Of a stretch of DNA of 38,130 nucleotides, positions 8,871 through 36,799 are shown piece by piece. Source of the stretch: Actinomycetota bacterium. Lineage in GTDB: Bacteria > Actinomycetota > Acidimicrobiia > Acidimicrobiales > MedAcidi-G1. How positions within the stretch are numbered: the first letter of the stretch is position 1; every line of letters begins with the position of its first letter. A program made the translations under genes and the position numbers. Under the pieces are notes generated by a model that was given only the letters and a program-made list of their open reading frames with translations, had not been told where the DNA came from and made no database searches. The stretch is taken from assembly GCA_014381745.1 (NCBI GenBank), contig JACNLA010000033.1, forward strand, positions 1 through 38,130. The letters run 5' to 3'.

Positions 8871-9836
8871 TCACCGTCTCGGGAAGACCTCGCTACCGGG
8901 TTCCTCAGGCTCATCGTCCAGCATTTCCGGTGGGAAGCTGGGAGCCCGTACGTCTGCGCCGGTTACGTCCTCGAGCCTGCGGATGATGTTGGGCGACCAC
9001 TCCCGGGGCCCGTAGCGCTCACGTCCATCTTCGAAGATCTCCCGCAGCAGCGGTGACACCTCGAGCGGGACACCCAGCCGGACGGCCAGGTCGTCAAAGA
9101 GGCCCACGTCCTTGACCACCAGGTCCATCGTGAAGTTGATGTCACGACTTCCGTTCAGGATCACCTGACTCTCCGTCTCATGTACGAACGAGTTGCCCGA
9201 AGAGATCCGGATGGCCTCATACGTAGTTGCCAGATCCATGCCCGCCACCGCAGAGGTTGTCAATGCCTCGCACAGCGACACCAGGTTCGCCGAGGCGAGG
9301 TAGTTGGTGACCACCTTCAGCACCGACGCAGAACCCAGCGGACCGGTGTGGAGTATCTGGCGACCCATCGCCGTCAACACGGGGAGCACCTGCTCGAAGG
9401 CCTCTCGGGTGCCCCCGGCCAGAATCGCGATGTTGCCTGTTGCCGCCCGGTGACAACCTCCCGACACGGGACAGTCCAGAGCGGCTGCTCCGGTTCCCTC
9501 CACGAGGGCACCCAACCGACGCACCTCGGCCTCGTCGGTCGTGCTCATCTCAAGCCAGACCCTGCTCCCACCTCCACCTGAGGCAAAACCCGCGATCAAC
9601 CCGTCCTCACCTTCGAGAACCTGTGCACACGTCTCTGGCGAGGGGAGACAGGTGATGACCACGTCACACGATGCCGCCATGTCCCGGACCGAATCAGCCC
9701 AGGCCGCTCCGCTGTCCACCAGGGGCCTTGCCACCTCGGCATCCAGGTCTCTCACGACAAGGTCGAACCCGTTACGGAGCAGGCTCCCCGCCAACTTGCC
9801 ACCAACGTTTCCCAGGCCGATGAATCCGATGCGCAT
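8871..9836 (-). CDS. NAD(P)-dependent beta-hydroxyacid dehydrogenase (3-hydroxyisobutyrate dehydrogenase family)
   Basis: 321 aa. The N-terminal Rossmann domain begins M-R-I-G-F-I-G-L-G-N-V-G (GLGxxG at residues 7-12), with R-D-L-D after strand 2 (the Arg hints at NADPH). D-C-P-V-S-G-G near residue 141 is the substrate-binding signature, and L-K-V-V-T-N-Y-L near 172 carries the catalytic Lys and conserved Asn. The all-helical C-terminal domain follows, with V-K-D-V-G-L near 241. Members oxidise 3-hydroxyisobutyrate, tartronate semialdehyde, 6-phosphogluconate-like acids or related substrates; the exact one is not readable. The tail after about residue 300 is rich in Glu, Pro and Asp. It is divergent from the potassium channel gene and not obviously in an operon. 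Confidence 0.88.
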   Translation of the reverse strand: MRIGFIGLGNVGGKLAGSLLRNGFDLVVRDLDAEVARPLVDSGAAWADSVRDMAASCDVVITCLPSPETCAQVLEGEDGLIAGFASGGGGSRVWLEMSTTDEAEVRRLGALVEGTGAAALDCPVSGGCHRAATGNIAILAGGTREAFEQVLPVLTAMGRQILHTGPLGSASVLKVVTNYLASANLVSLCEALTTSAVAGMDLATTYEAIRISSGNSFVHETESQVILNGSRDINFTMDLVVKDVGLFDDLAVRLGVPLEVSPLLREIFEDGRERYGPREWSPNIIRRLEDVTGADVRAPSFPPEMLDDEPEEPGSEVFPRR

Positions 9837-9934
9837 GGCTGTCTCCGATCGGGATGCGATTGGGCCGTCCTGGCCAAAGCGGACGCTACTCCTCCGCCAA
9901 CGGGGGCAGAGGACCCACTAGGTACCCTTCGTGC

Positions 9935-10945
9935 ATGTTTCGTCGCACCAGCAGGCCGGCTCGTAGCCGTCTGGCCAACGCCGCTGGCCTCCTGCTGGCC
10001 GTCATTGGCGCCGGGTCGACCGGCTACATCCTGTTGGACCTGAGCCCGGTCGATGCCGTCTACCAGACCATCGTCACGGTCAGCACGGTCGGCTTCAGAG
10101 AGATCGCCAACGGCGAACCGACGACAACGTGGAAGGCATTCACATCGGTGCTCATCCTGGTGGGCACCGGCTCGATGCTCTACGGAGCGAGCATCGTCAT
10201 CGAAAGCATTGTCGAAGGCCGGATTTCCGGCCAGTACCGGAGGTACCGAATGCAACGCCAGATCGACGACCTGAGTGGACACCTGATCGTGTGTGGAATG
10301 GGCAGGGTCGGCCGTTCGATCACCTCGTTCGTGCAGTCGGTCGGACAGACCGTGGTCACGGTTGACACCGAAGAGGGCCGGCTAATCGCCAACGGCGGCA
10401 TATTCGTGGCAGGCGATGCCACCAGCGACGACGTTCTCCGCCAGGCCGGAATTGAACGTGCCGCCACCCTGGTAACCGCACTGGGTTCGACCGTCGACAA
10501 CCTCTACGTGACCCTCAGCGCCCGAGAGATGAACCCCGACCTGTTCATCGTGTCGCGCGCCGACGAGGCCGAGAGCATCACCAAACTGCACCAGGTCGGT
10601 GCCAACCGGGTTGTGAACCCGTATGAGATCGGCGGTTACCGCATGGCCAGCCTCGCGACCCAACCCAACGTCGCCGACTTTGTCGACGTGGTTGTCCACG
10701 ACGGAACTTTCGAGGCCACCCTGCGTGAGTTCAAGATCCCTGCCGGCTGTGAGTTCGAGGGAAAGACCATCGACGATCTCTCCATCCGCAGCAGCACAGG
10801 AGCCGTGGTGCTTACTGTCCGCGATGAACTTGACCGGTTCCACACAGATGATCTGGCCAACCGCCCTTTCGCCGTTGGAGACGTGATCGTCGCCATCGGA
10901 TCCGACGAGAGCCTTGAGCGGCTTGCGAGGCTGGTCGGCTGCTGA
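9935..10945 (+). CDS. Two-TM potassium channel with RCK (TrkA) domains
   Basis: About 336 aa from the ATG at 9935. The open frame reaches 9854, but that stretch (R-L-G-R-P-G-Q-S-G) is unlike a protein start and overlaps the divergent upstream region. Layout: a short basic tail, TM1 (about 16-36), a pore helix with the filter-like T-V-S-T-V-G-F (48-54), and TM2 (about 69-93). Then come a basic linker, an RCK-N Rossmann domain beginning G-H-L-I-V-C-G-M-G-R-V-G (115-126) and an RCK-C domain at the end. This is the MthK/Kch-type plan, a membrane K+ channel gated from the cytoplasm by Ca2+ or a nucleotide. The filter reads TVGF followed by R-E rather than TVGYGD, a divergent form. TAGGTA ten bases before the ATG could be a leaderless-type -10. 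Confidence 0.85.
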   Translation: MFRRTSRPARSRLANAAGLLLAVIGAGSTGYILLDLSPVDAVYQTIVTVSTVGFREIANGEPTTTWKAFTSVLILVGTGSMLYGASIVIESIVEGRISGQYRRYRMQRQIDDLSGHLIVCGMGRVGRSITSFVQSVGQTVVTVDTEEGRLIANGGIFVAGDATSDDVLRQAGIERAATLVTALGSTVDNLYVTLSAREMNPDLFIVSRADEAESITKLHQVGANRVVNPYEIGGYRMASLATQPNVADFVDVVVHDGTFEATLREFKIPAGCEFEGKTIDDLSIRSSTGAVVLTVRDELDRFHTDDLANRPFAVGDVIVAIGSDESLERLARLVGC

Positions 10946-29616: not shown

Positions 29617-30159
29617 CTAGCTGGGTGCCAGCAGGTGCCGCATCGCTGTGCTCATTGCGCTGAGGCGGTTGTAGAGGGCCTCATAGATCGAGCGGTCAAG
29701 CCCGTAGGGGTCTGGAACCTCGTCGGCTGTGCGGCCAACGGTCATGTGTCCGCCTCGTGCAGCGTGCAGTTGCGCCACCCATTCCCTGAGGGTCGTGCCC
29801 GGCAGGAGGGGTCCGACGGTGCCACCCAGCCTTGGAACCTCGCCGGCCAGAAAGGTCCGACCCCGGGCGTCCTGGCTGAGCGCGGCGACAGCTGACTCGT
29901 GCACACGTGTCATCACGACGATCAGGTCGGCCTGGTCGATCAGGTAGTCGGTCAGCAGGGTGCTGCGTTGGTCGGCGATGTCTATTCCGTGTTCTGCGAG
30001 CACGCCGACTGAGTGGCTGGTTGCAGGTCCGCCGGTCATTGCGTGGGTGCCCGCCGAAGCAACGACCAGGTCGGATCCTGCAGATGCCAGATCGTGTGCC
30101 AGCAGCCCCTCGGCCATTGCCGATCGGCAGATGTTGCCGGTGCAGACGAAGAGAATCAC
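29617..30159 (-). CDS. Low-molecular-weight protein-tyrosine phosphatase family protein
   Basis: 180 aa from a GTG at 30159. The P-loop C-T-G-N-I-C-R-S sits at residues 6-13 (nucleophile C6, R12) and the general acid D150 is in D-P-Y-G. In known members the Cys forms a phosphocysteine intermediate. S-A-G-T near 35 is also conserved. The distance from P-loop to D-P-Y-G is longer than in classic LMW-PTPs (about 137 rather than about 110 residues), due to an insert around 105-145 (L-G-G-T-V-G-P-L-L-P-G). This kind of insert is seen in some actinobacterial members. It could act on protein phosphotyrosine or, less likely, arsenate. It starts 24 bp after the stop of the putative selenoprotein gene. 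Confidence 0.88.
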   Translation of the reverse strand: MILFVCTGNICRSAMAEGLLAHDLASAGSDLVVASAGTHAMTGGPATSHSVGVLAEHGIDIADQRSTLLTDYLIDQADLIVVMTRVHESAVAALSQDARGRTFLAGEVPRLGGTVGPLLPGTTLREWVAQLHAARGGHMTVGRTADEVPDPYGLDRSIYEALYNRLSAMSTAMRHLLAPS

Positions 30160-30183: not shown

Positions 30184-31095
30184 TCAGGCTGTCGCTGCCT
30201 CGGCGGCGGCGCGGTCTGACTCGAACTGGTACTGGGGTTCGGCCAGGCGGGGGCTGCGGCTGTCGCCGTCGGCCTGGCGGATTCCGTTGTCGAGGCCGCT
30301 GGTAGCGGCGTCCTTCCATGCCTGATCATCTGACCAGCCAACGTCGAGGTCCACGATGGTGCCCGGTTCGGTGATGGTCCACGCCGCGGCGAGCGCCTGA
30401 CTAAGCAGGTCGGTCTGGAACTCAGGGTCGTGTGGTCGGCCGGCCGTGTAGCCGAGCGGCATGTCCACGAAGGCGGCCCTGGGTGGGTTGGCCGCTGCGG
30501 TGATGCTCCGCGCGGCCGTCAGGCTGAGCGTCGATGTGCCGGCTGCTTCGATTGCCCTCGCTACCAGACCCACGGTCTGGTGGCATACAGGTCAAACGGG
30601 TACGAGCAGCACCAGGTCGACCTCGCCGGCAGCCTTCATGGCGTCGATTGCACCGACGATCGCCGGGGCCAACTCCTCTTCGGCTCGCCGTGCCGAGTAG
30701 ATGCCTCCCATGCACGCGATCGCCTCCGGCGCAATGCCTCCGATCGTGCCGGCGGCAACCATCTCGTTGAGGCGGTCCACCGGGAAGACAATGTTGGGGT
30801 CGCTTCGGGCGGGTTCCAGGTCGTAGGCGAAGTGGGTTACGCGTACGTCACCAGCCGGTTGGTCGGTTGGAATGTGGCGGATGCCGGTGTCGTCCTTCCA
30901 GTGAAATGCCACCTGGCCCTCGCGGTAGGCCCCACCGGATCCGACGAGAGCAATTGTTGAGTTGGAGAGCGGCTTGCGGAGCGGTGTCCAGGGTGGCTGA
31001 TCGGGGCGATGGGCCCACTGGTAGGGCTCGTAGCCGAGGGCCGAGTACTGCAGGGTCGTGCGTTCGATGTAGTCAACCGGTTTGCTCAGGTCCAC
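30184..31095 (-). CDS. Putative selenoprotein of the glycine/betaine/D-proline reductase B (GrdB/PrdB) family, in-frame UGA = Sec168
   Basis: One frame of 303 residues from the ATG at 31095 to a TAA at 30184. It is interrupted once by TGA at 30594-30592 (codon 168); the frame is otherwise open. The N-terminal part has family hallmarks: S-T-I-A-L-V-G-S-G-G near 45-54, D-P-N-I-V-F-P-V-D-R-L-N-E-M near 99-112, then G-T-I-G-G-I-A-P-E-A and C-M-G-G. The UGA falls in V-L-L-V-P-V-U-P-V-C-H-Q-T-V-G, so Sec168 and C171 form a U-x-x-C redox pair where related proteins carry C-x-x-C or U-x-x-C. A SECIS-like hairpin follows. Members are selenium- or thiol-dependent reductases, anaerobic amino-acid reductases in clostridia; the role in this organism is unknown. 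No grdA, prdA or other subunit is adjacent. Divergent from a MerR gene. Alternatives are a nonsense-mutated gene or two genes. Confidence 0.85.
30560..30591 (-). promoter_or_regulatory. Bacterial SECIS-like stem-loop after the UGA
   Basis: Minus strand, starting 8 bases after the TGA: ACCAGACC-GTG-GGTCTGGT is a perfect 8-bp stem with a 3-nt loop. A further G-C and C-G pair beyond a C/A mismatch extends it (GC at 30584-30583 with GC at 30561-30560). The loop begins 19 nt after the TGA and its first base is G. Known bacterial SECIS elements have an apical loop about 16-37 nt past the UGA with a G among the first loop bases, so both criteria hold. It lies in coding sequence, as expected. Confidence 0.8.
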
Positions 31096-31202: not shown

Positions 31203-31955
31203 ATGGACTCCGCCACCAGGGAACTCTCGGTCGAACAGGTCGCAGCCGAAGCCGACCTGAACGTCGATACGGTCCGCTACTACCAGCGTCTTGGCCTTCT
31301 GGAACCGCCGGACCGACAGGGCCGTCGGGCCGTCTACCGGCCCGATCACGTGAAACGCCTCACCGAAATCAGACACCTCGCCGATGCCGGCTTCACCCTC
31401 GCCCAGATCGGGCGCCTCACAGATCCGGCCGACAGTACTGACACCCTCGGAAGCCTCGCAGCCGATACCGCCCGGGCACGCCGCCTGACACGCTCAGAGG
31501 TGGCCGATCAGGCCGGGGTTCCCGAGGGTCTCGTTGCCCTTCTATGTGACAACGGCCTTCTCGAGACCTCGCTCGTCGACGGCGAGCAGCGCTTCGACAA
31601 GGGCGCCGTGTCCATGGTGCGGGCCGGATTGGCTGTGAGCGCCGCCGGCGTGCCGCTGGATGAACTCGTCAGCCTTGCAGCCGACCACGCAGGCAACGTC
31701 GACGACATTGTGCGAAGGGCCATCGCCCTCTTCGAAGAACACGTCACCGACGATTCAGGTAGTGGCGACGACGACCTCGTCGAGGTGGTTCACGCGCTCC
31801 TTCCGGCAATTACCCGTCTGGTGGCCCAGCACTTCCACCGCTCCCTGGTATCACGTGCCCTCGACAGGGTGGCCGACGGCGATCGTCCCACCCTCGCCGA
31901 TGCTCTGATCGCCGCGGACACCGAGCACCTTGTGGTCACCTGCGAATGGCGCTGA
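31203..31955 (+). CDS. MerR-family transcriptional regulator with a probable second HTH domain
   Basis: 250 aa from the ATG at 31203 (the frame is open further upstream, but the promoter and the M-D-S-A-T start fit here). Residues 9-75 are a standard MerR winged helix: S-V-E-Q-V-A-A-E-A-D-L-N-V-D-T-V-R-Y-Y, G-L-L-E-P-P, Y-R-P-D, L-A-D-A-G-F-T-L-A-Q-I. Residues about 95-160 repeat the same pattern in weaker form (R-S-E-V-A-D-Q-A-G-V-P, D-N-G-L-L-E-T, Q-R-F-D-K, A-A-G-V-P-L-D-E-L). This suggests an internal duplication, which I infer from alignment by eye. The C-terminal part is helical with no obvious ligand cysteines. It overlaps menF by 10 bases. It may control men genes and the divergent selenoprotein; no inducer can be named. 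Confidence 0.9.
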   Translation: MDSATRELSVEQVAAEADLNVDTVRYYQRLGLLEPPDRQGRRAVYRPDHVKRLTEIRHLADAGFTLAQIGRLTDPADSTDTLGSLAADTARARRLTRSEVADQAGVPEGLVALLCDNGLLETSLVDGEQRFDKGAVSMVRAGLAVSAAGVPLDELVSLAADHAGNVDDIVRRAIALFEEHVTDDSGSGDDDLVEVVHALLPAITRLVAQHFHRSLVSRALDRVADGDRPTLADALIAADTEHLVVTCEWR

Positions 31956-33271
31956 CCGAGCCCAACGCCACCGACCTACCGGTCGCCACCACCGTCGAGG
32001 TAACCGACGGTGCGGCCCGCGACCCCCTGGCCTGGCTGAACATCGCTCCGGCCGGGGTCGAACGCTGGTTCTGGGAGATCCCCGACGACGATTCCTCATG
32101 GGTGGGCCTGGGCTCTTACACCTCGGTTCCCCTTAGCGGCCCAGGGCGTTTCTCGGATGCCAGACGCCTGACGGCCGACATTTTCGGCGACCTCGTCATC
32201 GACGCTCCAGCCGGAGCTCCCCTACCACGCCTAGCCGTCGGCTTTGCCTTCGAACCCGATGGCGGCAACCGGGCCTGGCAGGACCTGAGTGGTGGACGCC
32301 TCGTGCTCCCGGCGCTACAGGTTCTTCATAAAGGTGGGCGAACCTGGATAACCAGCATCGGCGACCCGATCATGTCCAATCCCGGCGTGGCGGCCCCACC
32401 CGCGGACAGACCGGCCGACGCCGAGGCATCCAGGTGGGCCTCCGAAGATGAACGTTCGATGTATCGACATCTGGTGGCTACTGCACTCAAGGCGATCGAG
32501 GCAGGCGAGATCACCAAGGCGGTTCCATGTAGATCAATCCGCGTGGACCACAGCCCTGACCTGCCACGCCTGTTGGCCACCCTCAGGGAGACCTTCCCGG
32601 CCTGTGCCACCTTCTGCGTCGACACCGGGAGGACCATCTTCGCGGGGGCCACTCCTGAACGACTGGCAGCGGTTCACGCCGGCCATCTGGACACGGCAGC
32701 CCTCGCAGGCTCCGCTCCACGACATCCGGTCACCGACATCGACGACGCCCTGGGGCAAGGTCTCATGACCAGCCCAAAGGAACGCAACGAACACGCTGTG
32801 GTGGTGGACGCTGTTGTCGAGTCCCTCGACGACCTGGGGCTGACGCCGATACTCCCGGAGGGGCCGGCCCTTCTACGCCTGCACGGAATCCAGCACCTGC
32901 ACACGCCTATCAACTGTGACCTACCCGCAGATGTCGGCATTCTTGACGTGGTCGGTGCACTCCACCCGACGCCCGCGGTTTCTGGCGCTCCGATCGAGCG
33001 CGCTATCGAGTTGCGGGGAATTCACGAACATCTGGACAGGGGCTGGTTCGCCGGTCCCCTCGGATGGCTGGACCCAGACGGCGACGGTGAGTTCCGCGTG
33101 GCCCTCCGCTCGGCCCTGGTCGACGATCTGGGAACGACCCTGTTCGCCGGAGCCGGTGTCGTCGCCGGTTCCGACCCTGACCGCGAGTTGCTCGAGACCG
33201 AGGTCAAGCTGGGGGCCATGTTGGGTCCCGTGCTTGCCGCATCCCGCCCTGTCGAAGAGACATCACCATGA
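31946..33271 (+). CDS. menF: Isochorismate synthase (MenF-type)
   Basis: 441 aa. Converts chorismate to isochorismate, the entry step of the o-succinylbenzoate menaquinone route. The chorismate-binding fold shows I-T-K-A-V-P-C-R near 189 (K191, the lysine position used as base in MenF), G-A-T-P-E-R-L (E238, matching the acid residue), the S-P-K-E-R-N-E-H-A segment, and L-H-P-T-P-A-V-S-G-A-P. The end (L-L-E-T-E-V-K-L-G) fits too. It starts at ATG 31946, inside the MerR gene, and its stop overlaps the menD start (ATGA). Alternative substrates such as salicylate or siderophore pathways are less likely because menD, menH and menC follow directly. Confidence 0.93.
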   Translation: MALTEPNATDLPVATTVEVTDGAARDPLAWLNIAPAGVERWFWEIPDDDSSWVGLGSYTSVPLSGPGRFSDARRLTADIFGDLVIDAPAGAPLPRLAVGFAFEPDGGNRAWQDLSGGRLVLPALQVLHKGGRTWITSIGDPIMSNPGVAAPPADRPADAEASRWASEDERSMYRHLVATALKAIEAGEITKAVPCRSIRVDHSPDLPRLLATLRETFPACATFCVDTGRTIFAGATPERLAAVHAGHLDTAALAGSAPRHPVTDIDDALGQGLMTSPKERNEHAVVVDAVVESLDDLGLTPILPEGPALLRLHGIQHLHTPINCDLPADVGILDVVGALHPTPAVSGAPIERAIELRGIHEHLDRGWFAGPLGWLDPDGDGEFRVALRSALVDDLGTTLFAGAGVVAGSDPDRELLETEVKLGAMLGPVLAASRPVEETSP

Positions 33272-35013
33272 GGACCGGCATCAGGAACAAACAGGCAGAT
33301 ACGGTCGCCGTGCAGGCGTCCTGTCACGGGCTGTTCGCACAGTTGGCGCAATCTGGGGTGGCACACGTGGCCATTTCGCCGGGATCTCGCTCAACGCCCC
33401 TGACCATCGCTGCTGACAGAACCCCAGGGCTTGAGGTGTCGATCCACATGGATGAACGTTCGGCGGGCTTTTACGCCCTTGGACTCGCCAGGTCGAGCCG
33501 TCGCCCGGTCGCCCTTGTCTGCACGTCGGGCAGCGCCGCGGCCAACTACCTGCCTGCCGTGGTCGAGGCGTTCCACTCCGGCGTGCCGTTGATCGTCCTC
33601 ACAGCGGACCGCCCACCAGAGCTGCAGGGCCGCGGCGCCCCCCAGACCATCAACCAGGAGGACATATTCGGCACTCACGTCCGCTGGTCAACCCAGGCGC
33701 CCGTCTTTGGTACCGAGCCTGTCGAGGAGTCGGTCCGCCTCGCTGCCGTGGCAGTCGAGCAGTCACTGGCTCCGGTGCCAGGACCAGTGCACGTCAACTG
33801 TCCGTTTCGGGAACCGCTCGAGCCTCCCACCGGGGCACCGCCACCAGCCAGCCTGCAGCCGCCACCTGGCGCGTCGACCCCACCGGACCCAGCCGATGTG
33901 GCCACACTCACTGGCCTCCTGTCCCGGGAGAAAGGCCTCATCGTGGCGGGCCCGATGGATCTGGATGCGGCTGGCGTCGCCGCGGTAGCGCGCCTCTCCA
34001 CCGACAGCGGCTGGCCTGTCATCGCCGACCCGGCATCGGGTCTGAGGCGTGGACCCCACATCGCCGATGCTCCTGTTCTGGCCTCTGGTGAACATCTCCT
34101 TGCTGCCGGATTTGGCGACCGCCACCAACCCGACGTCATCGTGCAGTTGGGTGGGCTACCCACCAGCCGTGCCTACCGGATCTGGTTGCAGCGGTGCGGT
34201 GCCGACCGTGTCGTCGCCGTCGACAACACCGGCCGCTTCCCGGATCCCTCCTTCGCCGTGACAGACCGGGTTGCCGCCGACCCGGCAGAGTTGGCAGGTG
34301 CCCTCTTAGCCGGGTTCGATGAGCGTGGCCCCACGGAGTGGACGAAAGAATGGGTGAACGCCGAGGCCAGCGCATCCCGGACCATGGCCGATCTCGTCTC
34401 GATCGCACCGTTCGACGAACCCGGCGTGGTCGACTCCCTGTGTCGTGCGCTGCCGGCCGGAGCAAACCTGGTTGTAGCCAACTCCATGCCGATCCGCGAT
34501 CTGGATGCCTTCATGCCGGTCGACCAGCGGCCACTTGCCGTGTTTGCCAACCGGGGCGCCAACGGCATCGATGGCCTGATCTCGACGGCGGTCGGCATTG
34601 CTGCCGGATCCGACGCTCCGACCGTCCTGTTCACAGGCGACCTTGCGCTGCTGCACGACCTCACAGGCTTCGTGGCCGCCGAACGCCTGGGAGTCGATCT
34701 GACGGTGGTCGTGGTCGACAACGACGGCGGGGGCATCTTCTCGTTCCTCCCCATCGCCGACGAAGCCGACGTCGACCACCACCGCCTCTTCCACACACCA
34801 CACGGCCTGGACCTGGGTCTGGCAGCCAACCTCGCAGGGGCAACCCTCGACCGCATCTTCGACCGGGAGGGCCTCGACCTTGCCCTTGCCACATCGATCG
34901 GTCATCGCGGCATTCACCTGTTGCACGTCAGAACCAATGCCGCCACGAACGTGGAAATCCACCGGCGGGCTGGGACAGCTGTGGCCGAAACCCTGGCGGG
35001 TCCTGGCCGATGA
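33268..35013 (+). CDS. menD: 2-succinyl-5-enolpyruvyl-6-hydroxy-3-cyclohexene-1-carboxylate synthase
   Basis: 581 aa, a ThDP enzyme joining isochorismate with 2-oxoglutarate. The N-terminal Pyr domain has S-P-G-S-R-S-T-P-L (38-46) and H-M-D-E-R-S-A-G-F (E63, the ThDP-activating glutamate), then T-S-G-S-A-A-A-N-Y. A middle domain follows. The PP domain shows N-R-G-A-N-G-I-D-G and G-D-L-A-L-L-H-D, followed by V-V-V-V-D-N-D-G-G-G-I-F-S-F-L-P (ThDP-Mg site). ATG at 33268 overlaps the menF stop by 4 bases. The segment around residues 188-210 (between Pyr and middle domains) is unusually rich in Pro and Ala. Confidence 0.96.
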   Translation: MRTGIRNKQADTVAVQASCHGLFAQLAQSGVAHVAISPGSRSTPLTIAADRTPGLEVSIHMDERSAGFYALGLARSSRRPVALVCTSGSAAANYLPAVVEAFHSGVPLIVLTADRPPELQGRGAPQTINQEDIFGTHVRWSTQAPVFGTEPVEESVRLAAVAVEQSLAPVPGPVHVNCPFREPLEPPTGAPPPASLQPPPGASTPPDPADVATLTGLLSREKGLIVAGPMDLDAAGVAAVARLSTDSGWPVIADPASGLRRGPHIADAPVLASGEHLLAAGFGDRHQPDVIVQLGGLPTSRAYRIWLQRCGADRVVAVDNTGRFPDPSFAVTDRVAADPAELAGALLAGFDERGPTEWTKEWVNAEASASRTMADLVSIAPFDEPGVVDSLCRALPAGANLVVANSMPIRDLDAFMPVDQRPLAVFANRGANGIDGLISTAVGIAAGSDAPTVLFTGDLALLHDLTGFVAAERLGVDLTVVVVDNDGGGIFSFLPIADEADVDHHRLFHTPHGLDLGLAANLAGATLDRIFDREGLDLALATSIGHRGIHLLHVRTNAATNVEIHRRAGTAVAETLAGPGR

Positions 35014-35813
35014 CCACCCGTCTGCACACCGAGGTTGAGGGCAGGGGTCATCCTCTCATGCTTCTCCACGGCTTCACGGGCGACACATCGACCATGTGGC
35101 CGCTCGGTCACCAGATCACCGGCATCCGTACCGTGATCGCCGTTGACCTGCCCGGCCATGGAACTACGGGCGTGCTCGCCGACCATGCTGGCTACCGCTT
35201 CGACAACACCGTCGACGCCCTTGCCGCGACGGTGAGACAACTCGGCCACGAAACCGTCGACCTCCTCGGCTACTCCATGGGAGGCCGCATCGCCCTGGGC
35301 CTGGCGGTCAGGCACCCCGGTCTGGTGCGTTCGAGTGTGCTCATCGGGGCCACGGCAGGAATCGTCAGCGATGCCGAACGTGACCTACGCAGGCGCACCG
35401 ACGACGACCTGGCAGAGGAAATCCTCAGCGACGGGCTGGAGTCCTTCGTGGACTACTGGATGGACCTTCCGCTCTTTGAGACCCAGGCACGCCTGGGACA
35501 GGATGCCCTGCACGATGCCCGAGAGCAGAGGCTCAAGAACCACCCGGACGGCCTGGCCGGAAGCCTCCGCGGTGCCGGTAGCGGCAACCAGCCGTCGTTG
35601 TGGCGCGAGTTGCACAAGGTGAGCGGGCCGGTGCTGTTGATCGTTGGCGACGAGGACCCCAAGTTCCGGTCACTGGCCATGAGGATGGCTTCAGGACTTC
35701 CCAGGGCTGAGATCTCCGTGATTCCAGATGCCGGCCATGCAGCCCATCTCGAGAATCCGGCTGCCACCGTTCTCGCTGTGAGGGCCTTCTTCGACGAGTT
35801 TGCCTCACCGTGA
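35010..35813 (+). CDS. menH: Alpha/beta hydrolase, probable MenH
   Basis: 267 aa from an ATG at 35010 that overlaps the menD stop as ATGA. Alpha/beta hydrolase with L-L-H-G-F-T-G near 18, nucleophile elbow G-Y-S-M-G-G (S89), V-G-D-E-D-P-K-F and the base in D-A-G-H-A-A-H-L-E-N-P. G-Y-S-M-G-G-R and the His-containing D-A-G-H-x-x-H-L-E are typical of MenH, the SHCHC synthase that eliminates pyruvate after MenD. Its position between menD and menC in a tightly overlapping unit supports this; the sequence alone would only say hydrolase. Confidence 0.88.
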   Translation: MTTRLHTEVEGRGHPLMLLHGFTGDTSTMWPLGHQITGIRTVIAVDLPGHGTTGVLADHAGYRFDNTVDALAATVRQLGHETVDLLGYSMGGRIALGLAVRHPGLVRSSVLIGATAGIVSDAERDLRRRTDDDLAEEILSDGLESFVDYWMDLPLFETQARLGQDALHDAREQRLKNHPDGLAGSLRGAGSGNQPSLWRELHKVSGPVLLIVGDEDPKFRSLAMRMASGLPRAEISVIPDAGHAAHLENPAATVLAVRAFFDEFASP

Positions 35814-36799
35814 GGATCGTCGAGGCCGGTGTGGCCCGCCACACCTTGACCTACCGCAACCCGGTCACGACAGCCCGCGGACAGATCGCTGAGCGCCAGG
35901 TCCTTTTATTGACCCTTACCGACGATGACGGTCACGTCGGCGTCGGCGAGGCAGCACCCCTTGAGGGCTTCACGTCTGACAACTTGGACCTTGCCGAAGC
36001 TGCTCTGCTGGCATGGGCCGGAGATGAGGGCGACGGGACACTCGCCGACTCCCCCACGGCGCAGGCCGCTGTGGATGCCGCACTCCACGATCTGGCTTCA
36101 GCTACCGCCGGGGTGCCCCTTCACAACTACCTGAGCCCTGAGAGCCCATCCTCACTACCCGTCGCCGCTCTCGTGCTTGGACAGGACCCTGATGAGCTGG
36201 CGGGAACGGCCTCAGCGGCGGTCGAAGCCGGCCACACCACCGTCAAGGTCAAGGTTGGTGCCCTGAGGATCGAAGAGGACCTGGAAAGGGTGTCGGCTGT
36301 CCGCAGAGCCATCGGTCCCGGAACGGCGATCCGGTTGGACGCCAACGGGGCATGGAGCCCTGAGGACGCACCCGAAAACCTTGATCGGCTGGCAGGTCTT
36401 GACATCCAGTTCATCGAAGAACCCGTCTCAGGAGTCACCCAGATGGCGAACCTCATGCACGTATCGCCCATACCCGTGGCTGCTGACGAGTCCATCCGCA
36501 CCCGGGCCGACCTGGACCTGACCATCTCAGCCGGAGCCGCCGACCTGGTCGTTCTCAAGCCGTCAGCAATCGGTGGAATATCGGTAGCTGCGCAATGGGC
36601 TGCACGGGCCCGCTCGGGAGGCATCGGCGTGGTCATCACGTCGCTGCTGGAGAGTTCTGTCGGCATCAGGGCAGCCGCCCACCTTGCCTCGGCGATCGGT
36701 GCCCTGGACCCGTCACCTGGCCTGGCAACGGCCAGCCTCCTGGCAACAGATCTGGGCACCCCTCTTCTGCCCGAAAGCGGACACCTGAACCTGGCCTGA
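35810..36799 (+). CDS. menC: o-Succinylbenzoate synthase
   Basis: 329 aa from a GTG at 35810, overlapping the menH stop as GTGA. An enolase-superfamily dehydratase that makes o-succinylbenzoate. V-K-V-K-V-G (K146, K148) matches the KxK base, L-D-A-N-G-A-W (D177), I-E-E-P-V (E203) and A-A-D-E-S (D226) the metal ligands, and L-K-P-S-A-I-G-G (K250) the second base lysine. The order menF-menD-menH-menC is complete for SHCHC to OSB; menE, menB and menA are not in the window. Confidence 0.93.
   Translation: MRIVEAGVARHTLTYRNPVTTARGQIAERQVLLLTLTDDDGHVGVGEAAPLEGFTSDNLDLAEAALLAWAGDEGDGTLADSPTAQAAVDAALHDLASATAGVPLHNYLSPESPSSLPVAALVLGQDPDELAGTASAAVEAGHTTVKVKVGALRIEEDLERVSAVRRAIGPGTAIRLDANGAWSPEDAPENLDRLAGLDIQFIEEPVSGVTQMANLMHVSPIPVAADESIRTRADLDLTISAGAADLVVLKPSAIGGISVAAQWAARARSGGIGVVITSLLESSVGIRAAAHLASAIGALDPSPGLATASLLATDLGTPLLPESGHLNLA

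Follow-up and report, generated by a model that had tools for sequence, protein, structure and literature searches.

The closest described relatives of the gene analysed here are PrdB of the clostridial D-proline reductase (TIGR04483), given as a 26-kDa subunit (PMC13188914), and, more distantly, GrdB, GrdF and GrdH, the selenocysteine (Sec) subunits of glycine, sarcosine and betaine reductases (PF07355, TIGR01918). Selenoproteins designated proline reductase PrdB have also been known since 2005 and 2008 from marine metagenomes, so the family is not new. Sec-containing UxxC proteins of this kind rank with the most frequent marine selenoprotein families both in the Sargasso Sea set, with 42 Sec vs. 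1 Cys forms (PMC1088965), and in the GOS data, with 235 Sec vs. 110 Cys forms (PMC2398784). Since these marine Sec proteins with a UxxC motif had already been described, the gene reported here counts as a member of a known family. The survey proteins and ours have in common the UxxC motif, the likeness to PrdB and PF07355, the marine habitat and a Sec form that is more frequent than the Cys form, and it is likely that the survey proteins and our subfamily are identical; the sections of both reports consulted here give no organism of Acidimicrobiia, gene context or partner analysis. As far as the literature searched shows, what is new is the assignment to Acidimicrobiia genomes with a complete Sec machinery, together with the gene neighbourhood and the lack of a partner subunit. 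This puts a marine selenoprotein family of high abundance into named Acidimicrobiia genomes, which have the full Sec machinery and lack the reductase partners after which the family was named.

The gene lies in a stretch of 38,130 nt from a marine actinobacterium (contig JACNLA010000033.1; the window). Re-reading of the window confirmed the claim of the initial annotation that the minus-strand frame at 30184–31095 is open for 303 codons except for a single in-frame TGA at codon 168 (30592–30594); the gene starts with GTG at 31095 and ends with a TGA terminator at 30186–30184. This TGA occurs in the context L-L-V-P-V-(TGA)-P-V-C-H-Q and thus occupies the first position of a TGA-Pro-Val-Cys motif, whose second redox residue, Cys171 (30583–30585), is at least 90% conserved among 48 aligned proteins. 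In line with the anticipated splitting by standard gene callers, a mechanical listing of open reading frames gives two separate ORFs, at 30592–31095 (167 aa) and 30184–30573 (129 aa). We have very little doubt that 30184–31095 is instead one gene, with a UxxC selenoprotein of the PrdB/GrdB family as its product, which corrects a gene model that annotation would split; this seemingly stop-broken gene is almost certainly intact, with selenocysteine in the active site.

A profile search with the complete product matched TIGR04483 (PrdB) over residues 33–251 (E = 3.9e-41, 141 bits) and PF07355 (GRDB) with 27.7 bits, above the cut-off of 22, although only over the C-terminal part of the model. The likeness to clostridial PrdB is thus collinear over residues 33–251 and includes Sec in a UxxC motif; however, the window protein does not reach the equivalog cut-off of TIGR04483 (300), scoring less than half of it; at 303 aa, it is extended at both termini, and its gene has a different neighbourhood. 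With GrdB, GrdF and GrdH there is a distant match over the Sec region, including the UxxC motif, but our protein is shorter and far under the NCBIfam cut-offs, and its gene is not accompanied by a GrdE-type partner. The pyruvoyl subunit of the GrdE/PrdA type (PF09338) is absent from the host genome, whereas the same model was positive in 15 of 396 genomes of the phylum; in two of these genomes (G018 and G022) it adjoins a longer PrdB/GrdB-like gene, in the classical arrangement which the window gene lacks. Neither PrdA (TIGR04480) nor GrdA (selenoprotein A, PF04723) was matched in the host genome, with models that matched no positive control either. A true PrdB, serving as D-proline reductase subunit in a Stickland-type fermentation, would agree with TIGR04483 being the best family match and with the UxxC motif reported for PrdB, but is very unlikely in view of the low score, the absence of PF09338 by a model with a positive control, the missing PrdA match by a model without one, and the presence of menaquinone (vitamin K2) genes as neighbours. 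From the score below the PrdB cut-off and from the lack of a pyruvoyl partner in the genome, we conclude that the window protein is neither a D-proline nor a glycine reductase.

The in-frame TGA is conserved among homologs. A class-wide scan of 395 genomes gave PrdB-family matches in 133, and nearly all of these matches contained exactly one internal TGA. Alignment to the window protein showed TGA at codon 168 in all 47 homologous loci (35–84% identity), with similar identity on either side of the TGA and collinearity across both sides. Beyond these loci, three natural homologs have Cys (TGC) in its place (L084, L109, and L117). Frameshifts or other stops at this codon, which would have spoken against a selenoprotein, were not observed in the homologs that carry the TGA. 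The peptide patterns used to retrieve one set of close relatives within the homolog collection leave codon 168 out, so that the conservation of the TGA in these loci is not an effect of how they were selected. Codon 168 is a stop in 37 of 40 further stretches, some of which are the same genes fetched again, Cys in one and Ala in two more distant members; among 29 more distant loci of the phylum, it is TGA in 27 and TGC in two, and these Cys members are the three homologs named above. The alignment of 48 proteins, from which the two members with Ala were left out, shows no variation at residues 168 and 169 and hardly any at Cys171. Finally, codon alignments gave dN/dS values of 0.09–0.25 past the TGA, similar to those before it, which indicates protein-coding selection across the stop.

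These comparisons bear on two other ways of explaining the stop codon. The UGA could be a true stop, with the C-terminal part restarting at the internal GTG (30573) to yield two separate proteins, since the 129-aa ORF does have a GTG start and both halves could in principle associate. This is extremely unlikely, because the next start codon is elsewhere in many homologs, the PVCHQ peptide that separates the TGA from any restart shows strict conservation within the subfamily, and the homologs with Cys are single open frames. Likewise, a single in-frame stop that splits the frame in a mechanical listing is the classic sign of a pseudogene or of a sequencing error, by which an ordinary Cys or Arg codon would have mutated to, or been misread as, TGA; the probability of this is negligible: the TGA recurs at this very codon in all 47 aligned loci, with purifying selection downstream of it, and its conservation across families and phyla already refutes such a reading.

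The selenoprotein reading also agrees with the gene content of the host. Its genome (2.19 Mb in 44 contigs, 95.9% complete) has close relatives that are mostly Acidimicrobiia, Acidimicrobiales, Acidimicrobiaceae or Microthrix, and a search for the four components of the Sec machinery found all of them, as proposed at the outset. Genes selA (C16:45680) and selB (C16:46851) adjoin each other and score above their cut-offs, the gene for tRNA-Sec (C16:32864; 67.5 bits, anticodon TCA) is in the same contig at around 13 kb from them, and the sole selD of the genome (L018, G000:C8:12185-13108) contains one in-frame TGA. TGA works as an ordinary stop in this organism: it ends merR, menF, menD, menH, menC and other sampled genes, and was internal in none of them. 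Among the loci scanned, tRNA-Sec was the only tRNA with a TCA anticodon. A reassigned TGA (e.g., to Trp), or its reading by an ordinary suppressor, would leave the frame open, but has practically no probability given that TGA ends most of the sampled neighbour genes, that the loci scanned held no tRNA other than tRNA-Sec with the matching anticodon, and that the replacement in homologs is Cys and not Trp or Arg.

Downstream of the TGA there is a SECIS-like hairpin (30563–30581, minus strand), with an 8-bp perfect stem (30581–30574 paired with 30570–30563; strands ACCAGACC and GGTCTGGT) and a GTG loop (30573–30571) whose first G is the 19th base past the TGA. Bacterial selenoprotein genes have a SECIS hairpin directly 3′ of the UGA whose apical loop contains a G, and the hairpin of the window gene agrees with this. 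The near-perfect hairpin of the initial annotation, with this stem, loop and position of the G, is borne out by the sequence, although its beginning 8 nt after the TGA was approximate: the 8-bp stem follows a spacer of 10 bases, and the predicted fold adds three outer pairs, which bring the start of the structure to 6–7 bases after the TGA. The hairpin was more stable than expected from dinucleotide shuffles (z = -2.7; 2 of 200 equally stable), but only mildly unusual among protein-preserving synonymous-codon shuffles, 12.5% of which fold as well. Across 50 distinct sequences, 88.5% of the cells pair, both sides have changed in four of the eight pairs, and the covariation score (0.308) was above that of shuffled alignments (0.123; none of 500 as high), in a control that leaves the relatedness of the sequences in; the score also drops when the partner strand is slid. 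In the clearest pair, base 1 of a Thr/Ser codon is matched with base 3 of a Gly/Ser codon (A-T 23, T-A 13, T-G 8, T-T 5, and A-C 1), and protein constraint does not explain the covariation there, because the third base of the Gly codon is synonymous; shared ancestry may contribute to it. The hairpin was not formed in five sequences from two other families (L022, L027, L035, L037, and L038), and an Rfam search with the window hairpin matched no family. With one in eight synonymous shuffles folding as well and five homologs not forming it, the SECIS carries less weight than the other findings, and the decisive evidence is comparative rather than the single hairpin. The host also carries another GrdB/PrdB-like gene, which is longer and contains a single in-frame TGA (L095, G000:C4:45425-46015, locus 9351–10523); following its TGA, this paralog has the identical ACC-GTG-GGT core at the same offset, within a different yet complementary stem.

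An AlphaFold2 model with Cys at the TGA position was confident overall (mean pLDDT 93.8, pTM 0.93) and also over residue 168, and contains a Rossmann-like alpha/beta domain in which residue 168 stands between a strand (161–165) and a helix (169–184), with Cys171 one turn away. A position before the N-terminus of a helix is the one expected for a nucleophilic selenol of low pKa, and in the model Sec168 would be placed just there. No relative was found in a sequence search of solved structures, nor a specific one in a fold search, where the best VIA-align Z (7.6) falls among the values usual for common arrangements with this tool; no functional reading is therefore drawn from the fold. We propose that SelB, loaded with Sec-tRNA(UCA), would bind the hairpin that directly follows the UGA and insert selenocysteine at residue 168, with the ribosome then continuing as far as codon 304, the terminating TGA. 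By analogy with GrdB and PrdB (PMC13188914, and what is generally known of these reductases), Sec would be the nucleophile; most likely, the selenolate would attack an electrophilic substrate, or reduce it, Cys171 would resolve the product as a Se-S bond, and a thioredoxin-type reductant would re-open this bond. Unlike D-proline or glycine reductase, the protein would work without a pyruvoyl subunit of the PrdA/GrdE type and, lacking this partner, its substrate would itself have to be electrophilic. We hold such a redox mechanism to be reasonably probable for the predicted selenoprotein.

The gene neighbourhood offers a first hint of the job of this protein and makes the role of the family testable. 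Divergently from the selenoprotein gene and 107 bases off, there are five plus-strand genes that overlap end to start: a MerR-family regulator (31203–31955; PF13411, 67 bits), which overlaps menF by 10 bases, followed by menF (isochorismate synthase, 31946–33271; TIGR00543, 262 bits), menD (33268–35013; TIGR00173, 437 bits), menH (35010–35813; TIGR03695, 233 bits) and menC (o-succinylbenzoate synthase, 35810–36799; TIGR01927, 179 bits), the four men genes scoring above their cut-offs. Immediately downstream of the selenoprotein gene, in the minus strand, is a gene for a low-molecular-weight phosphatase-family protein (29617–30159; PF01451, 92 bits); in the majority of the other loci of this family, the two are separated by a gene for an HSL-type esterase. 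The MerR-family gene adjoins the selenoprotein gene in 17 close loci, and the divergent merR-menF-menD-menH-menC order is kept in all nine genomes of the family of the window gene, our window included. Additionally, in all 13 genomes examined of another family (f50), an above-cut-off menB is located directly downstream of the selenoprotein gene and co-directional with it. No menaquinone neighbour was found within around 10 kb on either side, or less at contig ends, in three further families of the same subfamily (f19, f21 and f29) or in a locus from Deltaproteobacteria (L065). Owing to inheritance within each family, the adjacency to men genes counts as two events, and not 22; by a rough estimate made after seeing the pattern, the chance of two such arrangements in some six lineages is <1%. 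We hypothesize from this gene order that the selenoprotein is linked to menaquinone synthesis. More specifically, this PrdB-like, partner-free selenoenzyme might work in or protect menaquinone biosynthesis in Acidimicrobiia, for instance by handling a naphthoquinone or CoA-thioester intermediate, and the divergent MerR regulator might control it jointly with the men operon; we advance this as a tentative proposal, with the balance of probability against it. We know of no GrdB/PrdB-family protein with a role in menaquinone metabolism, and the literature searched held no paper linking selenoproteins, menaquinone biosynthesis and proline reductase.

Several minor observations concern other selenoprotein genes and members of the family. 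SelD of the host is probably a selenoprotein itself, in view of the in-frame TGA in its gene. Two PrdB-like genes (L112, G499:C19:14654-15340; L114, G469:C4:547402-548091) have two TGAs three codons apart, in the motif TGA-CCN-ATA-TGA-CAC; this would replace U-x-x-C by U-P-I-U, and possibly both of their active-site residues are selenocysteine. Homologs from other families (L022, L032, L035, L037, L038, and L042) end in a Cys-x-x-Cys tail (ACRACVGFDD or ACGVCVPS), not present in the window protein, that may be an extra resolving pair. Finally, a shorter subfamily of around 230–260 aa has a UPMC motif (L020, L021, L023-L026, L028-L031, L033, L034, and L040); 13 of its loci have an adjoining alpha/beta hydrolase gene, and 10 a small conserved ORF.
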